This document shows positions 5,273-40,035 of a stretch of DNA of 64,000 nucleotides, one piece after another; position 1 is the first letter of the stretch; each line of letters opens with the position of its first letter. The stretch is from Crossiella equi (lineage in GTDB: Bacteria; Actinomycetota; Actinomycetes; Mycobacteriales; Pseudonocardiaceae): the NCBI RefSeq assembly GCF_017876755.1, contig NZ_JAGIOO010000001.1, forward strand, positions 9,285,786-9,349,785. Direction: 5' to 3'. The notes beneath the pieces are model-generated. The model was not told the origin of the DNA and did not search any database. It saw only the letters and a program-made list of their open reading frames with translations. A program made the translations under genes and the position numbers.

Positions 5273-5577
5273 TCAGCCGCCCTGCCCTGCTGTCCCGTCC
5301 TGGGCGGACGAGGCGTTGCCGCGGGCGCGCGTGCTCGCGGGCAGCCGGGGGATCGGTCCGCGCCGGATGTGGCGCCACTGCGAGACGAACACGACAAGGC
5401 CTGCCAGCAGGCCCATCGAGCCCGGTAGCAGCGACGCCGTCCAGTCATCGCGCAGGAGCGCCCCGCGACGGCCGCGAGGACCAGGAGCGCGCCACCGGTC
5501 AGCACCTCCCCCGAGCTCCACCGCTTGAGGTCACGCATCCGCCGGCGCTGCTCGTCCGCCCAATCCTGCTTGCCCAC
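5273..5577 (-). pseudogene. Small two-TM membrane protein, frameshifted
   Basis: Two leftward reading frames join into one plausible small membrane protein. The first runs from the GTG at 5577, with GGGAGA upstream, as GKQDWADEQRRRMRDLKRWSSG and then the hydrophobic stretch LTGGALLVLAAVAG. Near 5465-5480 the sense continues in another frame as LLRDDWTASLLPGSMGLLAGLVVFVSQWRHI and ends at 5273. Each frame alone breaks down into arginine-rich low-complexity sequence beyond the junction. I recognise no family. It is either a recently frameshifted gene or a sequencing error in a GC-rich run. It lies in the 565-bp gap between lacI and araB, which otherwise holds only a terminator and the araB promoter. 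Confidence 0.45.
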
Positions 5578-5708
5578 GCAACAACTCTCCCGCATCGAGC
5601 GGGCCGCAGGGTGGTGTCCGGAAGCGCCCGCCCGTCAGCCCACCGCTCTCCGTCGTCCACTTCATTGCGCACGTTCACCACCAACTCAACCTCCATCCTT
5701 CCCCACCC

Positions 5709-5736
5709 TTGACGAAGCAAATGTGAGCGATAACAT
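5709..5736 (+). promoter_or_regulatory. araB promoter with lac-like operator
   Basis: TTGACG (5709-5714), a 16-bp spacer and TAACAT (5731-5736) form a promoter about 45 bp before araB. The operator TGTGAGCGATAACA at 5722-5735 covers the spacer and -10, and closely resembles the E. coli lac operator core. It belongs to the same set as the sites at 1268, 4153 and 56458. Confidence 0.65.
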
Positions 5737-5779
5737 TCAACCCCAGTTTCCCCTCCTCACCCCAACGAGGCTTCCTGAC

Positions 5780-7453
5780 ATGGCGATCGATCCCGACGCA
5801 TGTGTGGTGGGCGTCGACTACGGCACGCTGTCCGGCCGCGCCGTCGTGGTGCGTGTGCGCGACGGCGCTGAGCTCGGCACCGCGACGCACGACTACCGCC
5901 ACGGTGTGCTCGACCGCGTCCTCCCCGGCACCGGGCAACCCCTGCCGCCGGAGTGGGCGTTGCAGGTGCCCGCCGACTACGTCGAGGTGCTGCGGACAGC
6001 GGTGCCCGCCGCGGTGCGGGCGGCTGGGATCGACGCCGGCCGGGTGATCGGCATCGGGACCGACTTCACCGCCTGCACCATGGTCCCGGTCAACGCGGAC
6101 GGCACGCCGTTGTGCGAGTTGCCGGAGTTCGCCGGGGAACCGCACGCCTATGTCAAGCTCTGGCGGCACCACGCGGCCCAGCCGCAGGCGGACCGGATCA
6201 ACGAGCTGGCGCACCAGCGTGGGGAGAGCTGGCTGCCGCGCTACGGCGGGCTGATCTCCTCGGAGTGGGAGTTCGCCAAGGGGCTCCAGGTCCTGGAGGA
6301 GGCGCCGGAGGTCTACGCGGCGATGGCGCGCTGGGTGGAGGCCGCCGACTGGATCGTCTGGCAGCTGACCGGGCACTACACCCGCAACGCCTGCACCGCC
6401 GGGTACAAGGGCATCCACCAGGACGGGGCCTACCCGGACGCCGAGTTCCTCGCGGCGCTGAACCCGGAGTTCGCCGGGTTCGTGGCCGACAAGCTGGCGC
6501 ACCCGCTGTCGGCGCTGGGGGAGCGGGCCGGGGGGCTGAGCGCGCGGGCCGCGGAGTGGACCGGGTTGCCCGAGGGCATCGCGGTGGCGGTGGGCAACGT
6601 GGACGCGCACGTGACCGCGCCGGCGGCGCAGGCCGTGGCGCCGGGGCAGCTGGTGGCGATCATGGGCACCTCCACCTGCCACGTGCTCAACGGCGCGGCG
6701 CTGCGCGAGGTGCCGGGCATGTGCGGGGTGGTGGACGGTGGGATCGTGCCCGGGCTGTGGGGTTACGAGGCCGGGCAGAGCGGGGTGGGCGACATCTTCG
6801 CCTGGTTCGTCAACAACCTGGTGCCGCCGGAGTACCACGAGCGGGCCCGCGAGCGCGGGATCTCGGTGCACGAGCTGCTCACCGAACTGGCCGCGGCGCA
6901 GGCCGTGGGCGAGCACGGGCTGCTCGCGCTGGACTGGCACAGCGGGAACCGGTCCGTGCTGGTGGACCACGAGCTCTCCGGCCTCGTGGTCGGCCAGACC
7001 CTGGCCACCCGGGCCGAGGACGTCTACCGGGCGCTGCTGGAGGCCACCGCCTTCGGCACCCGGACCATCATCGAGGCCTTCACCGAGTCCGGGGTGCCGG
7101 TCACCGAGCTGATCATCGCCGGTGGGCTGCTGCGCAATGCGTTCCTGATGCAGGTCTACGCCGATGTCACCGGGCTGCCGCTGTCGGTCATCGGTTCCGA
7201 GCAGGGACCGGCGCTCGGCTCGGCATTGCACGCCGCGGTGGCGGCCGGGGCACACCGGGACATCCGGGTGGCCGCGGCCGTCATGGGGTCGGTGCGCCGC
7301 GGGGTGTACCAGCCGGACCCGGCCAATGCCGAGGCATACCAACGGTTGTACCTGGAGTACCGGCAGCTGCACGACTACTTCGGCCGGGGCGCCAACGAGG
7401 TCATGCACCGGCTGCGCGGCTACCGCCGGGACGCGCTGGAGAGGACGAGCTGA
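5780..7453 (+). CDS. araB: Ribulokinase
   Basis: AraB phosphorylates L-ribulose with ATP, the second step of bacterial L-arabinose catabolism. The 557-residue product is close to the 566 of E. coli AraB. It is an FGGY-family carbohydrate kinase: the N-terminal phosphate loop is VVGVDYGTLSGRAVVVR, with GIGTDFTACTMVPVN further on. The C-terminal half holds MGTSTCHVLN, YEAGQSGVGDIFAWFVNN and IIAGGLLRNAFLMQVYADVTG. The ATG at 5780 is chosen because AACGAGG lies 9 bp upstream and the protein then begins at the family N-terminus. It opens the araB-araD-araA-transporter operon and is governed by the operator-bearing promoter at 5709. Confidence 0.95.
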   Translation: MAIDPDACVVGVDYGTLSGRAVVVRVRDGAELGTATHDYRHGVLDRVLPGTGQPLPPEWALQVPADYVEVLRTAVPAAVRAAGIDAGRVIGIGTDFTACTMVPVNADGTPLCELPEFAGEPHAYVKLWRHHAAQPQADRINELAHQRGESWLPRYGGLISSEWEFAKGLQVLEEAPEVYAAMARWVEAADWIVWQLTGHYTRNACTAGYKGIHQDGAYPDAEFLAALNPEFAGFVADKLAHPLSALGERAGGLSARAAEWTGLPEGIAVAVGNVDAHVTAPAAQAVAPGQLVAIMGTSTCHVLNGAALREVPGMCGVVDGGIVPGLWGYEAGQSGVGDIFAWFVNNLVPPEYHERARERGISVHELLTELAAAQAVGEHGLLALDWHSGNRSVLVDHELSGLVVGQTLATRAEDVYRALLEATAFGTRTIIEAFTESGVPVTELIIAGGLLRNAFLMQVYADVTGLPLSVIGSEQGPALGSALHAAVAAGAHRDIRVAAAVMGSVRRGVYQPDPANAEAYQRLYLEYRQLHDYFGRGANEVMHRLRGYRRDALERTS

Positions 7454-9659: not shown

Positions 9660-10748
9660 ATGAGGTTTCTGCGGTGCACCGCCATCGCCGTGTCGATGGC
9701 GGTGCTGCTCACCGGCTGCGGCTCGGCGGTCAAGACCGTCGACCAGCAGGGGGCCGGCGGGGACGCCGCGCTGGTCGGCGTGACCATGCCGACCAAGTCC
9801 TCCGAACGCTGGATCCACGACGGGGACAACATCCGCAAGGCCCTGGAACAACAGGGTTTCCGGGTTGACCTGCAGTACGCGGAGAACGACATCCCCACCC
9901 AGGCCAACCAGATCGAGAACCAGATCACCAAGGGCGCCAAGGCCCTGGTCGTGGCCTCCATCGACGGCACCGCGATCACCTCGCAGCTCCAGCAGGCCGC
10001 CGACGCCAAGATCCCGGTTATCGCCTATGACCGGCTGATCCGCAACAGCCCGGCGGTGGACTACTACGCCACCTTCGACAACTTCAAGGTCGGCGTGGAA
10101 CAGGCCAACTCGCTGGTGGCCGGGCTGAAGAGCCGCGGCGGCGGGCCGTACGCGGTGGAGCTGTTCGGCGGCTCCCCGGATGACAACAACGCCACCTTCT
10201 TCTTCAACGGCGCGATGTCCGTGCTGCAACCGCTGATCGACGCGGGCACGATCGTCGTCCGGAGCGGGCAGAAGGACTTCGGCCGGGTGGCCATCCTGCG
10301 CTGGGAGCCGGCCACCGCGCAGCGCCGGATGGAGGACCTGCTCACCACCACCTACGTCGGCGGCCGGGTGGACGGGGTGCTCTCGCCCTACGACGGGCTC
10401 TCCATCGGCATTCTCTCCGCGCTGAAGAGCAACGGCTACGGCACCGCCGCCCAGCCCTACCCGGTGGTCACCGGGCAGGACGCGGAGATCGCCTCGGTGA
10501 AGTCCATCATCGCCGGGGAGCAGTACTCCACCGTGCAGAAGGACACCAGGGAACTGGCCAAGGTGGCCGCGAGCATGGCCAGCACGGTGCTGCGCGGGCA
10601 GAAACCCGAGGTGAACAACGACAAGGATTACCACAACGGGGTCAAGGTGGTGCCCGCCTTCCTGCTCCAGCCGGTCGCGGTGGACAAGGAGAACTACCGG
10701 AAGGTGCTGCTGGACACCGGTTACTACACCGAAAGCCAGCTGAAGTAG
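9660..10748 (+). CDS. chvE: Multiple-monosaccharide ABC transporter binding lipoprotein (ChvE-like)
   Basis: This 362-residue lipoprotein ([19 protein letters not shown], lipobox LTGC) belongs to the ChvE/GguE group of periplasmic-binding-protein type sugar receptors. Typical segments are [47 protein letters not shown] and [21 protein letters not shown]. The ATG at 9660 lies behind GAGGAGAAACA. ChvE-type proteins bind arabinose, xylose, galactose and related pyranoses. Its position between araA and a matching ATPase/permease pair indicates L-arabinose import. Confidence 0.92.
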
Positions 10749-32593: not shown

Positions 32594-34954
32594 ATGGAGC
32601 GCCTCTGGGGGATGCCGGGTCGTCCGGTTGAGCAGCGGGTGGCCGCACTGCTCGCCGAGATGACCCTGGCGGAGAAGCTGGCCCAGCTCGTCGGCGTGTG
32701 GGTGGGGGTGTCGGAGGTGGCGGCCGAGGTCGCCCCGGCCCAGCACGAGTTCGCCGAGTCCCTTCCTCCCTGGGACGAGCTGACCAAGTCCGGGCTGGGC
32801 CAGCTGACCCGCGTCTTCGGCACCGCCCCCGTCGATCCGGCGCACGCGGCCAGGGCACTGGCCCAGACCCAGCACCGCCTCCTGGCCGACACCCGGCTGG
32901 GCATCCCGGCGATGGCGCACGAGGAGTGCCTCTCCGGCTTCGCCGCCTGGCAGGCCACCATGTTCCCGGCGCCGCTGGCCTGGGCGGCGGCCTTCGACCC
33001 CGGCACGGTGCGGCTGATGGCCGAGGCGGTAGGCCGTTCGATGGCCGGGGTCGGTGTGCACCAGGGCCTGGCCCCGGTGCTGGACGTGCTGCGCGATCCG
33101 CGCTGGGGCCGGTCCGAGGAGACGCTGGGGGAGGACCCGTACCTGGTCGGCGTGCTCGGCGCGGCCTACGTCAACGGCCTGGAGTCGGCCGGGATCGTGG
33201 CCACCCTCAAGCACTTCGCCGGGTACTCCGCTTCCAGGGCGGGACGCAACCACGCCCCGGTGGGCATGGGGCCGCGCGAGTTCGCCGATGTGGTGCTGCC
33301 GCCGTTCGAGCTGGCCCTGCGCGTGGGCGGGGCGCGTTCGGTGATGCACTCCTACGCCGAGGTCGACGGCGTGCCCCCGGCGGCCGACCCGGCGTTGCTG
33401 ACCGGGCTGCTGCGGGAGAGCTGGGGCTTCCAGGGCGTGGTGGTGGCCGACTACTTCGGCATCTCCTTCCTGGAGACCGCGCACGGCGTGGCCGCCTCCC
33501 CCGGCGAGGCGGCGGCGCTCGCGCTGGCCGCGGGAGTGGACGTGGAGCTGCCGAGCGTGCGCTGCTACGGCGAGCCGCTGGCTGAGCTGGTGCGCGCGGG
33601 TGTGGTGCCGGAGCAGCTGGTGGACCGCGCGGTGACCAGGGTGCTGCGGCAGAAGTGCGAGCTGGGCCTGCTGGACGAGGACTGGGATCCTGAGCCGCCC
33701 GCGCTGCGCCTGGGCCTGCCGGTGGACCTGAACCCGCCTGAGCTGCGCACACTGGCCCGTACCCTGGCCGAACGCTCGATCGTGTTGCTGGCCAACGACT
33801 CCGGCCTGCTGCCGCTGCGTGATCCCGGGCGGCTGGCGGTGCTGGGGCCGTGCGCGGAGGAGGTGCTCGCCCTGCTGGGCTGCTACTCCTTCCCCAGCCA
33901 CGTCGGCACCCAGCACCCCGAGGTGCCGCTGGGCATCGAGGCGCCCACCCTGCTGGACGCGCTGCGCGCCGAGTTCCCGGACACCGAGATCCGGTGCGCC
34001 CCAGGCTGTGCGGTCACCGGCGAGGACCGCTCCGGCATCCCGGCCGCGGCCGCGCTGGCCGAGGCCGCCGAGGTGTGCGTGCTGGCTCTGGGCGACCGCT
34101 CCGGCCTGTTCGGCCGCGGCACCTCCGGCGAGGGCTGCGACGCCGCCGACCTGGCCCTGCCGGGGGTGCAGGCCGAGCTGCTGGCCGCGGTGCTGGACAC
34201 CGGGACCCCGGTGGTGCTGGTCCTGCTGGCCGGCCGCCCCTACGCCCTCGGCGGGGATGCCGAGCGGGCCGCGGCCGTGGTGCAGGCCTTCTTCCCCGGC
34301 CAGGAGGGCGCGGTCGCGGTCGCGGGCGTGCTCAGCGGCCGGGTGAACCCCTCGGGCAAGCTGCCCGCGCAGATCCCGCACGGCCCTGGCGGGCAGCCCG
34401 CGACCTACCTGCGCCCGAAACTCGGCGGAGCGGGATCGGCCAGCTCGGTGGACCCGTCCCCGCGGTTCCCGTTCGGCCACGGCCTGTCCTACACCAGCTT
34501 CGCCTACCTGGAGGGCCACGCGCCGGCCGAACTGCCCGGCGACGGCGAGATCGAGGTGTCCTGCCTGCTGCGCAACACCGGCGACCGGCCCGGCGCCGAG
34601 GTCGTCCAGCTGTACCTGCACGACCCGGTGGCCTCGGTGACCAGACCGGTGCGCCAGCTGGCCGGGTTCGCCAGGGTGCGGCTGGACCCCGGCGAGTCGG
34701 TGCGAGTCCGCTTCCGGCTGCACGCCGACCGGACCTCCTTCATCGGCCGGGACGGCCGCCGGGTGGTCGAACCCGGCGAGCTGCACCTGCTGCTGGGCTC
34801 CTCCAGCACCGACCTGCGGTGGCGGCACGTGGTGTGGGTCACCGGCGAACCCCGGTACCCCGGCCCGGACCGGGTGCTGGTGACCCCGGTGTGGCTGGAC
34901 GAGGAGGAGGTCACCGGCCTGCCGCTCGGCAGCCGGCAGGCGGACTCGGCTTAG
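32594..34954 (+). CDS. bxlA: GH3 beta-xylosidase/beta-glucosidase, cytoplasmic
   Basis: A 786-residue GH3 enzyme without a signal peptide, expected to cleave imported xylobiose and xylo-oligosaccharides. The N-terminal barrel includes VLDVLRDPRWGRSEETLGEDPYL and LKHFAGYSASRAGRNHAP. The nucleophile is Asp286 in GVVVADYFGI. The GH3 C-terminal sandwich and FN3-like domains follow (PFGHGLSYTSFAYL, GEVVQLY-like strand near residue 670). It is divergent from bxlEFG, matching BxlA of Streptomyces. Its last 44 bp overlap the convergent anti-sigma gene. Its promoter suggests a leaderless mRNA. Activity on glucosides or arabinosides cannot be excluded from sequence. Confidence 0.9.
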   Translation: MERLWGMPGRPVEQRVAALLAEMTLAEKLAQLVGVWVGVSEVAAEVAPAQHEFAESLPPWDELTKSGLGQLTRVFGTAPVDPAHAARALAQTQHRLLADTRLGIPAMAHEECLSGFAAWQATMFPAPLAWAAAFDPGTVRLMAEAVGRSMAGVGVHQGLAPVLDVLRDPRWGRSEETLGEDPYLVGVLGAAYVNGLESAGIVATLKHFAGYSASRAGRNHAPVGMGPREFADVVLPPFELALRVGGARSVMHSYAEVDGVPPAADPALLTGLLRESWGFQGVVVADYFGISFLETAHGVAASPGEAAALALAAGVDVELPSVRCYGEPLAELVRAGVVPEQLVDRAVTRVLRQKCELGLLDEDWDPEPPALRLGLPVDLNPPELRTLARTLAERSIVLLANDSGLLPLRDPGRLAVLGPCAEEVLALLGCYSFPSHVGTQHPEVPLGIEAPTLLDALRAEFPDTEIRCAPGCAVTGEDRSGIPAAAALAEAAEVCVLALGDRSGLFGRGTSGEGCDAADLALPGVQAELLAAVLDTGTPVVLVLLAGRPYALGGDAERAAAVVQAFFPGQEGAVAVAGVLSGRVNPSGKLPAQIPHGPGGQPATYLRPKLGGAGSASSVDPSPRFPFGHGLSYTSFAYLEGHAPAELPGDGEIEVSCLLRNTGDRPGAEVVQLYLHDPVASVTRPVRQLAGFARVRLDPGESVRVRFRLHADRTSFIGRDGRRVVEPGELHLLLGSSSTDLRWRHVVWVTGEPRYPGPDRVLVTPVWLDEEEVTGLPLGSRQADSA

Positions 34955-35297
34955 GCCACCAGGAGGGCAGCCGGGCCCGGCGGGGACCGGCGAGCCAGCC
35001 GGCCACCAGCAGCCCGGCCAGCGTGGCGGCCAGCACCCCGGCGGCGGTGCCGAACCTGGCCCGCAGCCGAGCCGCGCGGACCAGACCGGCAGGAGGCGCG
35101 GGGGTGAGCAGCTCGGCGGCCTGGTCCCTGGCCACCGCGACGAGCAGGCCGGGCAGTCCGGCGAACCCGGCGACCGCGTGCGCGCACGGGCGGCAGGCGC
35201 GCAGGTGGGCCTCGTAGTCCCGGCGCTCGGTGTGCGAGAGCGCGCCCAGCAGGTAGGCGGCGTCCCAGTCCCGGTACGGGTCGGCTGGCGGCGTCAC
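34911..35297 (-). CDS. Zinc-finger anti-sigma factor
   Basis: A 128-residue single-pass membrane protein. The N-terminal cytosolic part has DAAYLLGALSHTERRDYEAHLRACRPC with the HxxxCxxC zinc motif (His31, Cys35, Cys38) of ZAS-type anti-sigma factors. One membrane segment follows (FGTAAGVLAATLAGLLVAGWLAG), with a short outside tail. The GTG at 35297 overlaps the stop of the ECF sigma gene, so it should hold that sigma factor inactive until a signal arrives. Its 3' end overlaps the convergent GH3 gene by 44 bp. Confidence 0.88.
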   Translation of the reverse strand: MTPPADPYRDWDAAYLLGALSHTERRDYEAHLRACRPCAHAVAGFAGLPGLLVAVARDQAAELLTPAPPAGLVRAARLRARFGTAAGVLAATLAGLLVAGWLAGPRRARLPSWWPKPSPPAGCRAAGR

Positions 35298-35803
35298 CGG
35301 CTGGTCAGCCCCTTCTCCCTGAGGGCCAGGCGCAGCGCGCGCAGGCCGTAGTGCAGGCGGGAGCGCACGGTGCCCTGCGGCACCGCCAGGTCCACCGCGA
35401 GCTCGGCTACCGAGTGCCCGAGGTAGAACGCGCGGATGATCACCGTGCGGTGCTCGGCGGTCAGCTGGGTCAGCACGTCGGTGATCACCCAGGCGTCCAG
35501 CACCGAGTCGGTCTGGTCGGGCCGCGGCGGGTCGGGCACCCTGGCCGCGCCCACTTCCCGCCGGGAGTGCGCGCTGCGGCGTTCGTCGATGACCACGTTG
35601 CGCGCCACCCGGAACAGCCAGGCCCGCGCCGCCGACTCGCCCTGGTCCAGCACCGCGGGGCTGCGCCACAGCCGCAGCAGGCTTTCCTGGACCACGTCCT
35701 GGGAGAGCTGTTCGTCACCGGTCAGCCGCAGCGCGAAACGCCTCAGCGCGGGCGCGTGCCGGTCGTGCACCAGGCGGAGCAGCTCCGCTGCCGTGGTGCT
35801 CAC
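35294..35803 (-). CDS. ECF-family RNA polymerase sigma factor
   Basis: A 169-residue ECF sigma factor. Region 2 reads ALRRFALRLTGDEQLSQDVVQESLLRLWRSP with WLFRVARNVVIDERR, and region 4 LTAEHRTVIIRAFYLGHSVAELAVDLAVPQGTVRSRLHYGLRAL. The GTG at 35803 sits one base from the end of the membrane-protein gene, and the 3' end overlaps the anti-sigma gene. A promoter with an ECF-like GGCAAC -35 heads the operon, suggesting autoregulation. The trigger is unknown; the co-transcribed membrane flavoprotein-like gene hints at a redox or metal cue (inference). Confidence 0.93.
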   Translation of the reverse strand: MSTTAAELLRLVHDRHAPALRRFALRLTGDEQLSQDVVQESLLRLWRSPAVLDQGESAARAWLFRVARNVVIDERRSAHSRREVGAARVPDPPRPDQTDSVLDAWVITDVLTQLTAEHRTVIIRAFYLGHSVAELAVDLAVPQGTVRSRLHYGLRALRLALREKGLTSR

Positions 35804-35804
35804 C

Positions 35805-37073
35805 TCAGGAGTCCCAGATCGCGCCGTAGGCCGGGATTCCCCGTGCCTCGAGGGATTCGACCAGGTGCCAGGTGGTCTTCCGGTTGGAGATGCAGATGAC
35901 GGCCTCCGCGCCGGACTCCCGGTGCGCGCGCAGCGCCAGTTCGACCAGGTCGGGCTTGCCGTCCCGGTCGGTGTCCCAGATGACCGCCTCCGGCTGCACG
36001 GACTCGATCTCGGCCACCAGCGCCTCGCCGTAGGTGCGCACCGGGTTCCTGGTCGACCACACCAGGCGGGCCGGGGTGTCCCCGGCGAGCAGGTGCGGCA
36101 GGCAGGGGCCGATGCCGCTGCCGGTGGCCACCCACACCACGCCGCGGAAGAGCCGGTCGATGTTGCCCACGCCCGCGGTCGGGATGCCCTTGACCCACAG
36201 GTGCGCGGGCCGGTCGTCGACCAGCGCGCCGGTCCAGTCGCCGGCGCGGGAGATGGTGAGCCGGAAGCCGGAGCGGCCCGGCGTGGGCACGTTGGCGAAG
36301 GAATGCCACTCCAGCAACGGGTTCCGGCTCACCGCGGTGGAGGAGCCGGCGAACGGGGTGACCCCGTGGTCGAAGGTCACCAGGGCCACGTGCGGGGACG
36401 GCGTGCTGATCCGCACCGGCACCCGGCGCAGCCGCAGCCAGGGCAGCGCCACGCTGGTCACCACCACCAGCAGGGCCCAGAACGGCGCGGAGCCGAGGAA
36501 GTCCCGGCCCTGCGCCTGGGCCAGCGCGGCCGCGTGCGCGGTGAAGAGCACCAGCAGCGCCCAGCCGCCGAAGCGGTGGCAGCGCTCGAACAGGTCGTGC
36601 CGGGCCGCGCGCAGCCTCGGCAGCGCGAGCACCACCATGGCCACCAGCAGCGCCGCGATGGCCCAGGTGCAGGCCAGCAGCGGTGCCGGGCCGCCGCGGG
36701 CGGTGATCGTCCAGGCCAGCACCGCGAACCAGGCCGTACCGGCGATCGCGCCGCCGATGTGCAGGCCGCCGAAGTGGTAGACCTTGCCCAGCGTCCACCG
36801 CACCCGCAGCGGCCAGTGCTTCGGCGCGCTGGTGGCCAGCCGGAACAGCAGGTTGATCACGTGCTGCTGCCGGATCAGCACGGCCAGCAGCAGGTTGCCC
36901 AGCACCAGCCACAGCAGCACGTCGAGGTCGGCTGGCCAGTCGGTGGTCAGGGCCAGCACCAGGTTGGCCAGCACCACCGCGGCCAGCAGCCGGTTGTGGT
37001 GGGTGAACGGCCTGCGCCGCAGCCGGGCACGCCAGCTCGCCGGGGCGGGGGCCAGTACCGGGGCGGCGCTCAC
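35805..37073 (-). CDS. Six-TM membrane protein with C-terminal ferredoxin/ferric-reductase-like domain
   Basis: A 422-residue protein in two parts. Residues 1-215 hold six membrane segments (about 28-45, 52-68, 107-124, 131-151, 168-186, 197-212). Histidines in or near them (71, 100, 105, 166, 180; in VYHFGGLHIGG and ERCHRFGGW) could bind haem. The C-terminal half looks like a flavin/NAD(P)H reductase domain: LEWHSFANVP resembles a FAD-contact strand and VWVATGSGIGPCLPHLL a nucleotide-binding turn. It recalls the fungal TmpA-type membrane flavoproteins. The GTG at 37073 overlaps the stop of the adenylation gene, so the two proteins are probably made together. Electron transfer linked to the adenylated product is a hypothesis. 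Confidence 0.68.
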   Translation of the reverse strand: MSAAPVLAPAPASWRARLRRRPFTHHNRLLAAVVLANLVLALTTDWPADLDVLLWLVLGNLLLAVLIRQQHVINLLFRLATSAPKHWPLRVRWTLGKVYHFGGLHIGGAIAGTAWFAVLAWTITARGGPAPLLACTWAIAALLVAMVVLALPRLRAARHDLFERCHRFGGWALLVLFTAHAAALAQAQGRDFLGSAPFWALLVVVTSVALPWLRLRRVPVRISTPSPHVALVTFDHGVTPFAGSSTAVSRNPLLEWHSFANVPTPGRSGFRLTISRAGDWTGALVDDRPAHLWVKGIPTAGVGNIDRLFRGVVWVATGSGIGPCLPHLLAGDTPARLVWSTRNPVRTYGEALVAEIESVQPEAVIWDTDRDGKPDLVELALRAHRESGAEAVICISNRKTTWHLVESLEARGIPAYGAIWDS

Positions 37074-38629
37074 GCGACGGTCTCCGCCTGCTGGCCGGTC
37101 AGCCGGGCCAGCAGTGCCCGCCGGTCCACCTTGCCGCGTTCGGTCAGCGGCAGCCGGTCCACCGGCACGATCAGCGCGGGCACGCAGTAGTAGGGCAGCT
37201 GGGCGGCCACCGCACGGCGGACCGCCTCGGGCACGGCGGTCGCCGGGCTGACGAACCCGACCAGTCTGCCCTGGTGCAGCACCGTGCTGGCCCGCCGGCA
37301 GCCGGGCGCGCGTTCCAGCGCCGAGGTGACCGCGTCCAGCTCGACCCGGAACCCCTTGACCTTCACCTGGTCGTCGGTGCGCCCGTGGTGTTCCAGCTGG
37401 CCGTCGGTGGTCCAGCGGACCAGGTCGCGGGTGCGGAACATCAGGCCGCCGCCCAGGAACGGGTCCAGGCGGTAGCGCTGCGCGGTGAGCTCGGCGTTGC
37501 CGAGGTAGCCGCCGGTGACGCAGGCGCCACCGGCCCACATCTCGCCCACCTCGCCGATCCGGCACGGGTTGAGCGCCTCGTCGAGCACGTAGACGGTGGT
37601 GTTGGGCACCGGGCGGCCGATGGTCAGCCGGCCGGTGGCCGGGTCGTAGCGCTGCACGGTGTTGACGATGGTGACCTCGGTGGGCCCGCAGGCGTTGTGG
37701 AAGACCGCGGTGCGTGACCAGGCGCGGGCCAGCGCGGGCGGGCAGCGCTCACCGGCCACCGCGACCACCCGCACCCGCGGACAGGCGTTCGGGTCCACAG
37801 TGGACAGAACGCCGGGGGTGGCGATCAGCGCGGTCGCGGTGCGGGCCGCCGCGGTGGGGTCGTCACCGCGCACGAGCACGCAGCCGCCGTTGGCCAGCGT
37901 GCCCAGCACCTCCCACACGGCCATGTCGAAGGCGATGTTGAGCAGCTGGGGAACCCGGTCGCCGGGACCGATGCCGAGCGAACCCGGTGCGGTGAGCAGG
38001 ACGTTGCACAGGTTGGCGTGGGTGACCCTGACCCCGTTGGGTCTGCCGGTGGTGCCCGAGGTGAAGATCACCACCGCGGTCTCGCCGCACCGGGTGGGCA
38101 GGGCCGCGGTCGCCGATGGGTGGTCGTCGATCGCGATCACCGTGCCGAGGCCGTCCGGCACCAGTCCCCGGTGCGCCGTGGTGGTGAGCACGACCTCGAT
38201 GCCCGCCACCGCGGCGATGTGCCGCAGGTGCGGCGGCGGGGTGAGCCGGATGTCCTGCGGCACATAGGCCGCACCGGCCTTCAGCACCGCGAGCATGCCC
38301 ACCACCATGGCCACCGACCTGGTCAGGAACAGCCCGACGTGCGCGCCGGGGCGCACCCCGTGCTCGACGAGCAGCCGGGCCAGCGCGGTGGCCCTGCGGT
38401 CCAGCTCGGCGTAGGTCACCGACTCGCCGAGGTGCTCCACGGCGGGGGCCTGCGGGCAGGCCGCGGCCCGCGCCTGGAAGGCGTGGTGGAGGTGGGTGAA
38501 CGGGACCGGGACGCGCGGTCCCCACCCGAAGCGGTCGAAGAGCAGGCGCTCTTGCGGGGGCAGGCCGCGCAGGGCAGGGGATTCGACGATCGGGGTCACT
38601 CCGGATCCTTTCGCCAGGCCGGTGGTCAC
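37070..38629 (-). CDS. Stand-alone NRPS-like adenylation enzyme
   Basis: A 519-residue AMP-forming ligase of the amino-acid adenylation type. Core motifs are LKAGAAYVPQD (A2), VIFTSGTTGRPNGV (A3), NIAFDMAVWEVLG (A4), ACGPTEVTIVNT (A5), GGYLGNAELTAQRY (A6), RTRDLVRW (A7), GRTDDQVKVKGFRVEL (A8) and LTERGKVDRRAL (A10, with the catalytic Lys). The Asp in FDMAVWE, which binds the alpha-amino group in NRPS A domains, is present. No carrier-protein, condensation or thioesterase domain follows; the protein ends just after A10. It heads a four-gene, fully overlapping operon with a membrane flavoprotein, sigma factor and anti-sigma factor. The substrate is unknown. Confidence 0.88.
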   Translation of the reverse strand: MTTGLAKGSGVTPIVESPALRGLPPQERLLFDRFGWGPRVPVPFTHLHHAFQARAAACPQAPAVEHLGESVTYAELDRRATALARLLVEHGVRPGAHVGLFLTRSVAMVVGMLAVLKAGAAYVPQDIRLTPPPHLRHIAAVAGIEVVLTTTAHRGLVPDGLGTVIAIDDHPSATAALPTRCGETAVVIFTSGTTGRPNGVRVTHANLCNVLLTAPGSLGIGPGDRVPQLLNIAFDMAVWEVLGTLANGGCVLVRGDDPTAAARTATALIATPGVLSTVDPNACPRVRVVAVAGERCPPALARAWSRTAVFHNACGPTEVTIVNTVQRYDPATGRLTIGRPVPNTTVYVLDEALNPCRIGEVGEMWAGGACVTGGYLGNAELTAQRYRLDPFLGGGLMFRTRDLVRWTTDGQLEHHGRTDDQVKVKGFRVELDAVTSALERAPGCRRASTVLHQGRLVGFVSPATAVPEAVRRAVAAQLPYYCVPALIVPVDRLPLTERGKVDRRALLARLTGQQAETVA

Positions 38630-38659
38630 CCCAGCTGAACGAGACAGGTCGGGTGAATG

Positions 38660-38687
38660 TTCAACTAAATCTGCGAAAATCGTTGCC
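38660..38687 (-). promoter_or_regulatory. ECF-type promoter candidate for the adenylation-sigma operon
   Basis: On the minus strand GGCAAC (38687-38682), a 16-bp spacer and GTTG (38665-38662) match the general GGAAC-N16-GTT plan of ECF promoters, about 33 bp before the first gene. It is likely read by the sigma factor encoded in the operon. Confidence 0.5.
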
Positions 38688-38771: not shown

Positions 38772-39897
38772 TCAGCAGCCGGGGCGGCGGCGGTGCGAGC
38801 TGGCCCGTTCGGTCAGCCGCACCACCAGCGCGGTCAGCCGGGGCTGCTCCTGCGGCAGAGCCGCCACCGTGCGCCGCACCGAGGGCAGCTGCTCGTCGGT
38901 CGCCCTGGTCAGCACCGAGACACCGCGGCGGATCGCGGCCGCGGTGAAACCGGCCATGGATCGGTGCGCGTAACCGGTGTCGCGGTGGTAGACCAGCCGG
39001 GGTGAGCCGAGCATGGCCACTCCCGCGGCGCGGCGGCCCGGTTCACCGTAGGCCGTCCGGTTGGCCGCGCAGTTCCGCCGGGTGTAGCTGATGTCGTCCA
39101 GCGGGATGGAGAAGGCGCGCACCCCGAGGTCGTACATGGCTTGCAGCTTCGCGGTGAGCGCGGCGCGGTCCTCGGGGCTGGAGTAGCAGATCGAGGTGCC
39201 GGGGGAGAGGGCGTAGGTGAACCGGACGTGCCGCGCCGCGGCGGCCTCGACCAGCTCACCCAGCTGGGCCAGCCGGTCGGCCGGGTAGGGCTCGCGCCAG
39301 CGGTCGCGGTGGCACGGGTCGTTCTTGGACGCGTAGATGTAGGTGTTGGCCTTGACCTGGCCGTAGAAGGCGAGCTGGTCGAGGCGTTCCTGATGGGTCC
39401 ACGGCGAACCGTAGAAGCCCTCGATGGTGCCGTGCAGGGCCATCGCGGGGAAGTCGCTGACCGTGGCGCCCGCGATGCGCCGACGGTGCCGGTCACCGGT
39501 GAACAGCTGCCGCAGGGTCTGCACGGCGTAGTACCGGCCCGCCGGGTCCACCCCGCCGAGCGCCACGGAACCGCGCCGCGCGGTGACGGTGAGCGCGCTG
39601 CCCTCCGCCCGGCCGGGGACCGGGGTCGAGCCGAGGGTGGCGGCGACGTCCGGCCGGACCCAGGTGGAAGGTCAGCGGCGCGCGCCCCTCGGTGCCGATG
39701 TGCCGGACGCCGTGCTCGCGCGGGGTCCGCTCCAGCAGGGTGCGGGCAGTCGGGTCGGAGCGCTCGTCCACCACCAGCCGTACCCGGTCGCCGACCGGGA
39801 TGTCCGGTCCGCTGCGCTGGATGTGTTGCGGTGCGGGGAAAACCTGGGGGAGCGCGGCGGCGAGCAGGACGGATGCCGTTCGGTCGAGTGACTGCAT
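38772..39897 (-). pseudogene. GH84 beta-N-acetylglucosaminidase remnant
   Basis: The start of a secreted GH84 gene is visible from the ATG at 39897 (QSLDRTASVLLAAALPQVFPAPQHIQ, then VRLVVDERSDPTARTLLE and APLTFHLGP). Near 39660 the frame shifts and continues as VALGGVDPAGRYYAVQTLRQLFTG, then the GH84 barrel: DFPAMALHGTIEGFYGSPWTHQERLDQLAFYG, KNDPCHRDRWREPYP and FSIPLDDISY with the catalytic Asp pair. After about residue 200 of the barrel the sequence becomes unrelated and soon stops. The catalytic domain is therefore incomplete as well as frameshifted. GH84 enzymes remove GlcNAc; this copy should be dead. Confidence 0.78.
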
Positions 39898-40035
39898 GCG
39901 ATCTCCAGACAAGTGCGGGCGGTGATGTGCTCCAGTATGGCCCGTGGCCGGGACTTTTCCGGTGCCGCCAACGTCGGGGCGCGGTGGTCCGGTCTACGGG
40001 TTCCCAAGACGTGCCGGACTGGCTACCCTCCAGAC

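Follow-up and report, generated by a model that had tools for sequence, protein, structure and literature searches.

A carrier-less adenylation domain encoded beside a TmpA-like membrane protein in Crossiella equi: a probable bacterial counterpart of fungal TmpB

Introduction

What does an adenylation (A) domain of the nonribosomal peptide synthetase (NRPS) type do when it has no carrier protein to load and is encoded beside a membrane redox protein? This question is raised by an operon of Crossiella equi, the genome of which is a single contig of 9.44 Mb (NZ_JAGIOO010000001.1). The window, that is, the whole stretch of DNA analysed, covers 64,000 nucleotides of this contig (positions 9,285,786 to 9,349,785). 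An earlier sequence-only reading of the window had concluded that the arrangement matches no known pathway, while recalling a similar pairing in fungi. The latter proved correct: in fungal TmpB, TmpL and ChNPS12, one polypeptide joins an A domain to a membrane flavoprotein resembling TmpA (PMC4804170; PMC2766074; PMC2823734). The former does not stand, since this architecture was described in fungi between 2009 and 2016, and in 2010 single A domains of two bacteria, Hahella and Salinispora, were placed inside the fungal TmpB/TmpL/ChNPS12 clade (Bushley and Turgeon; PMC2823734), although the searched text of that paper reports no bacterial TmpA neighbour. Judged by architecture and by the published description of the fungal proteins, the operon is probably a bacterial counterpart of TmpB.

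A conserved pair of genes within one operon

The operon lies on the minus strand, where genes for an A domain, a membrane flavoprotein, an extracytoplasmic function (ECF) sigma factor and a zf-HC2 anti-sigma factor follow one another end to end. Its features, together with one slot that is filled in relatives, are as follows.

38637..38663, minus strand: putative ECF-type promoter, TGAAC-N14-TCTCGTTC (-35 GAAC, -10 CGTT), kept in the aligned sigma-bearing loci
37070..38599, minus strand: stand-alone NRPS-type A domain (TIGR01733, E = 1.9e-100; pocket DMWIAAAIVK), in a clade apart from the genome's NRPS A domains
35805..37073, minus strand: TmpA-like putative flavocytochrome with six transmembrane (TM) helices, the NADPH oxidase (NOX) fold, invariant H105/H166 and GSGIGP at residues 318-323 (AlphaFold, Foldseek and conservation)
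35804..35804, minus strand: slot of an enoyl-CoA hydratase gene between tmpA and the sigma gene, filled in 76 of 80 relatives and deleted in Crossiella
35294..35803, minus strand: ECF sigma factor (PF04542/PF04545)
34911..35297, minus strand: zf-HC2 (ZAS-type) anti-sigma factor with HLRACRPC (PF13490 above cut-off) and one likely TM segment, read from the sequence

The four open reading frames had been placed correctly by the sequence-only reading, as had the tight junctions between them, although these number three and not four: a GTGA overlap at 37073-37070, a 1-base gap at 35804 and a GTGA overlap at 35297-35294. The four genes are one operon, and their reading as one functional unit is supported.

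The pairing of the first two genes reaches far beyond Crossiella. Relatives were taken as the best 80 loci obtained when genome contigs were searched with the membrane protein; they belong to Actinomycetota, Chloroflexota, Bacteroidota and Pseudomonadota, and the nearest named ones are Crossiella. The same A domain is encoded directly upstream of tmpA in all 80, and in 10 Bacteroidota loci the two are fused in one frame of ~1,005-1,019 aa. In evenly drawn surveys, the membrane protein was found in 9 of 395 Actinomycetes (the own genome included), 2 of 296 Bacteroidota and 4 of 349 Pseudomonadota (the reference genome being included in each of the latter two), and the A domain accompanies it in all 12 strong survey matches examined, the hydratase in 11 of them. 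The sequence-only reading had proposed to see whether homologues occur apart or together, and among close homologues the two genes are without exception neighbours or fused. The identity matrices of the A domain and TmpA are correlated at 0.95, and the two proteins almost certainly act together. Since the set is conserved across phyla, and fusions occur as well, chance adjacency is ruled out. A phage-borne module is rejected, as viral contigs contain no relatives. Separately from these pairs, solitary TmpA-like genes annotated as 'hypothetical protein' are present on Pantoea and cyanobacterial plasmids (L216, L217, L218).

The adenylation domain

The A domain matches the amino-acid adenylation family TIGR01733 above cut-off, and Pfam and NCBIfam scans of the protein find no carrier, condensation or release domain, as had been read from the sequence. 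The pocket code was determined using as ruler what we take to be the GrsA sequence; across phyla, almost every family member has DMWI[AI]A[ASCG]I[VI]K. The equivalents of Asp235 and Lys517 are invariant throughout the family, which fits an alpha-amino acid substrate. The pocket resembles that of PheA, a comparison also made in the study of fungal TmpB (PMC4804170).

If the A domain charged a carrier protein of an NRPS elsewhere in the genome in trans, as suggested for the bacterial single A domains by Bushley and Turgeon (PMC2823734), TmpA would presumably modify the loaded amino acid. The genome indeed encodes dozens of NRPS A domains, with one cluster within about 85 kb. However, no carrier-protein gene is found among the genes near the operon, just outside of which the sequence-only reading had suggested looking for one, and none recurs among the neighbours of the pair, which is kept over four phyla. 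Moreover, in a tree with a sample of 15 NRPS A domains from the own genome, the A-domain family forms one clade well apart from them (branch 1.59). Charging in trans is thus unlikely. An ordinary NRPS part, with its carrier in cis or in the cluster, is rejected on account of the lack of a carrier and the separate A clade.

The membrane protein

Neither Pfam nor NCBIfam gives a match above cut-off for the membrane protein, and a PDB sequence search with TmpA gave only noise or very weak matches to NOX2 and DUOX. The AlphaFold model (pLDDT 88.3, pTM 0.85) consists of six TM helices followed by an FNR-type FAD/NAD(P) domain, as in NADPH oxidases and ferric reductases, and its best Foldseek matches are the bacterial SpNOX, NOX2, NOX5 and DUOX at 13-16% identity. 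GSGIGP is present in all 81 paired sequences. The model suggests that the protein carries a flavin, and recombinant TmpL has been shown to bind flavin (PMC2766074). For the fused Bacteroidota protein, AlphaFold with 10 rows gave a model too poor for use (pLDDT 48, pTM 0.30).

The six TM helices and the reductase-like C-terminus of the sequence-only reading are retained, while its paired histidines do not correspond to the H-x13-H pairs by which ferric reductases bind two haems. All 90 of 90 sequences, nine diverged solitary ones among them, share H105, where TM3 begins, and H166, close to the beginning of TM5; a weak profile match (E 0.3) aligns H166 with His209 of NOX2. At the position of the outer haem, TM3 has no His, and H180 on TM5 varies among H, Q, L and D, so that two H-x13/14-H pairs on TM3 and TM5 are not formed. 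This pattern suggests a single haem, adjacent to FAD at the cytosolic face. H100, H159 and E163 are also invariant among paired members and may form a metal or substrate site near the haem. A classical ferric reductase or NOX is rejected on account of the missing outer-haem ligands, which also make NOX-type transmembrane electron flow unlikely.

These features bear on another explanation, in which TmpA, as an NADPH oxidase or reductase, produces superoxide or peroxide or reduces metal at the membrane. The A domain would then supply an aminoacyl compound that is regulatory or redox-active, in line with the role in redox homeostasis that has been proposed for TmpL. The NOX fold and the redox phenotypes of fungal tmpL mutants (PMC2766074) speak for such a role. 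Transmembrane electron flow of the NOX type is nevertheless improbable here, A. nidulans tmpB mutants are not sensitive to H2O2 (PMC4804170), and the conserved hydratase is left unexplained; we consider this explanation as improbable as the charging in trans.

In one locus (L127:5377-6648), a TmpA-like protein devoid of GSGIGP is encoded beside a class-V aminotransferase/desulfurase-like gene.

A hydratase as the third member in relatives

An enoyl-CoA hydratase gene lies directly 3' of tmpA in 76 of the 80 relatives and is missing only in Crossiella and Kribbella; it was not visible to the sequence-only reading because it is absent from the Crossiella genome. It encodes a protein of the crotonase fold (PF00378) that keeps both catalytic Glu residues in 76 of 76 cases (the Glu/Glu/Pro signature being identified by pattern in 75 and by eye in L032). 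Two lineages, type-1 and type-2, fill the same slot, and in the locus L045 an A-TmpA fusion of the type-2 group carries a type-1 hydratase, indicating that hydratase activity has been recruited to this slot more than once. In the A-domain tree, Crossiella stands beside Amycolatopsis that retain both hydratase and sigma factor, from which a loss of the hydratase in Crossiella follows; Kribbella has lost both. The own genome contains no type-1 orthologue elsewhere, and the best candidate for a stand-in, a hydratase at 7,313,359, is up to 63% identical to type-2 members. In 13 Bacteroidota loci (e.g., L081:10307-11038), a DUF6733 gene, the product of which has a likely signal peptide and is possibly located in the outer membrane, is found 3' of the hydratase gene.

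Other Crossiella have a second, different A-TmpA copy (L128:3501-8395, L129:4219-10315), which also lacks a hydratase and is followed by genes for MarR and aldehyde dehydrogenase and, in L129, also for Zn-alcohol dehydrogenase. This context would suit formation of an aldehyde or alcohol, in which the activated amino acid is reduced or cleaved, with the hydratase serving as an Fcs/Ech-like hydratase/aldolase or with dehydrogenases handling the aldehyde. It has been seen only in Crossiella, however; no short-chain reductase domain is present, and TmpA is unlike thioester reductases. Such a route seems slightly less probable even than the two explanations considered above.

Sigma factor, promoter and translation start

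The sigma factor has ECF r2/r4 regions, and the HLRACRPC of the anti-sigma factor is of the form H-x3-C-x2-C. With an apparently autoregulated promoter, the two form an ECF sigma/ZAS anti-sigma pair. The dedicated switch perceived by the sequence-only reading is thus present with this operon, although it is not part of the core but confined to one actinobacterial subclade, accompanying the operon in relatives from Pseudonocardiales, Rhodococcus and Nonomuraea. Rhodococcus rhodnii (L024) has sigma/anti-sigma pairs on both sides of its A-TmpA-hydratase genes (5275-5888, 9998-10746).

The motif TGAAC-N14-TCTCGTTC or a close variant precedes the operon in the aligned sigma-bearing relatives, with a GTGACC-like stretch after it in most, and is absent upstream at the loci without sigma (L034, L035, L037). 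From this co-occurrence, the sigma factor looks autoregulatory. The exact motif occurs only once in the 9.44 Mb of the own genome, at 38663-38637 of the window, which makes the sigma factor look dedicated to its own operon. Six other genomes likewise carry it at the operon, and two of these contain a single additional exact match.

The same alignment bears on the start of the A gene. The GTG at 38629 assumed by the sequence-only reading is doubtful: GTGACC at this position is kept as DNA just 3' of the promoter, within a conserved non-coding stretch. Translation probably starts instead at GTG 38599, 3' of GCGAAAGGA, because the frame matching GTG 38629 meets TGA within six codons in the relative L012.

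Surroundings of the operon

The genes around the operon serve carbohydrate transport and degradation. They comprise those for components of sugar transport, a lytic polysaccharide monooxygenase, a lectin protein and a GH3 glycosidase, as well as a broken NAGidase gene. The NAGidase/GH20b gene lies directly upstream of the operon (38772-39912, minus strand) and is broken over two frames; its 3' part runs into a remnant of a LacI regulator, in place of which the Crossiella locus L009 has an intact-looking LacI gene.

A proposed pathway

There is about an even chance that the operon represents a bacterial TmpB-type module in reduced form, by which an alpha-amino acid is activated and then oxidised at the membrane. 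Handling of an activated alpha-amino acid together with a membrane redox protein, as the sequence-only reading had supposed, is supported. The operon, the pairing and fusion, the hydratase, the promoter, the pocket, the fold and the histidine pattern are seen in the sequences, whereas the chemistry, from adenylation to hydration, is inferred. In the proposed mechanism, the ECF sigma factor, restrained by its membrane-anchored zinc anti-sigma factor, would switch on essentially one promoter, its own. The A domain would adenylate a single alpha-amino acid of hydrophobic or aromatic character, identical or similar from phylum to phylum, and the acyl group would be moved to a soluble thiol, most likely coenzyme A (CoA), as in other ANL ligases. 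TmpA would then pass electrons from NAD(P)H via FAD to a single haem b at the cytosolic face. It would presumably not send them across the membrane but use them at the inner leaflet for an oxygen-dependent reaction by which the activated amino acid is probably desaturated or hydroxylated. The hydratase would add water to the resulting unsaturated thioester; in Crossiella, a housekeeping hydratase may substitute for it. This course, in which TmpA oxidises an aminoacyl-CoA before hydration takes place, is backed by the hydratase, by the haem pattern and by the precedent of BvaA/BvaB (PMC4619459). We prefer it to any other single explanation, but give it at best an even chance and perhaps somewhat less.

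Several points weigh against this proposal. The likeness to fungal TmpB stands on architecture and not on sequence comparison. Diverged TmpA homologues (~540 bits or less against the profile) have no A neighbour, implying that the family extends, as it does in fungi, to TmpA proteins that stand alone. The local hydratase is absent from the window, from two other Crossiella and from two Kribbella, so that it is either dispensable or acts in trans there, and it is the hydratase and nothing else that points to CoA as the acyl acceptor. The MarR and dehydrogenase genes after the second Crossiella copy indicate that downstream chemistry may differ.

Fungal TmpB/TmpL is needed for normal sporulation and for virulence in two fungal pathogens, and what it makes has been a question since 2009. 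In the bacterial version the soluble and membrane parts are separate, a dedicated sigma factor allows induction, and a third enzyme is present, which makes this question directly testable. If the proposal is true, a NOX-fold protein with the inner haem site only has been put to a new use, biosynthesis instead of transmembrane electron transfer. More speculatively, and rather doubtfully, bacteria and fungi might share a previously unrecognised pathway, in which a carrier-less A domain forms CoA esters of alpha-amino acids, a single-haem NOX-like enzyme desaturates or oxygenates these at the inner leaflet, and hydration yields a signal that is small and diffusible. A molecule of this class has been proposed for TmpB in fungal sporulation, which tmpB affects in A. 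nidulans (PMC4804170).

Comparison with known systems

No description of a bacterial A-TmpA-hydratase operon was found in the open-access literature, to which the search was confined, subscription papers not being covered. TmpA shares its full-length fold with SpNOX (TM-score 0.63-0.67), whereas identity is 13%, and it keeps only the inner haem-ligand pair and lacks the outer one. The BvaA/BvaB pathway for beta-valine similarly combines an adenylating amino-acid ligase with a hydratase-fold enzyme that acts on an aminoacyl-CoA (PMC4619459), but BvaA is PaaK-like and uses a beta-amino acid, and no membrane redox protein takes part. The present hydratases also differ from BvaB in keeping Pro after the second Glu, apparently the residue reported missing in BvaB. 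In A. nidulans, the gene of the adenylate-forming enzyme AfeA lies beside that of TmpA, and both belong to one pathway for an extracellular signal (PMC4804170), although AfeA is a 4CL-like acyl-CoA ligase and not an amino-acid A domain.

Fungal TmpB/TmpL/ChNPS12 corresponds most fully to the present pair: an NRPS-type A domain without carrier, condensation or release domains is linked in both to an oxidoreductase that has six TM helices, an FAD/NAD(P) domain and GSGIGP. The length of the fungal TmpB type (989-1025 aa) is close to that of the Bacteroidota fusions, and in Aspergilli an enoyl-CoA hydratase gene adjoins tmpB (PMC4804170), which matches the bacterial triad. In contrast to fungi, A and TmpA are encoded by two separate genes in most bacteria, the bacterial hydratase gene lies within the operon, and ECF sigma/anti-sigma control is present in one actinobacterial subclade, to which the operon of the window, itself devoid of the hydratase, belongs.

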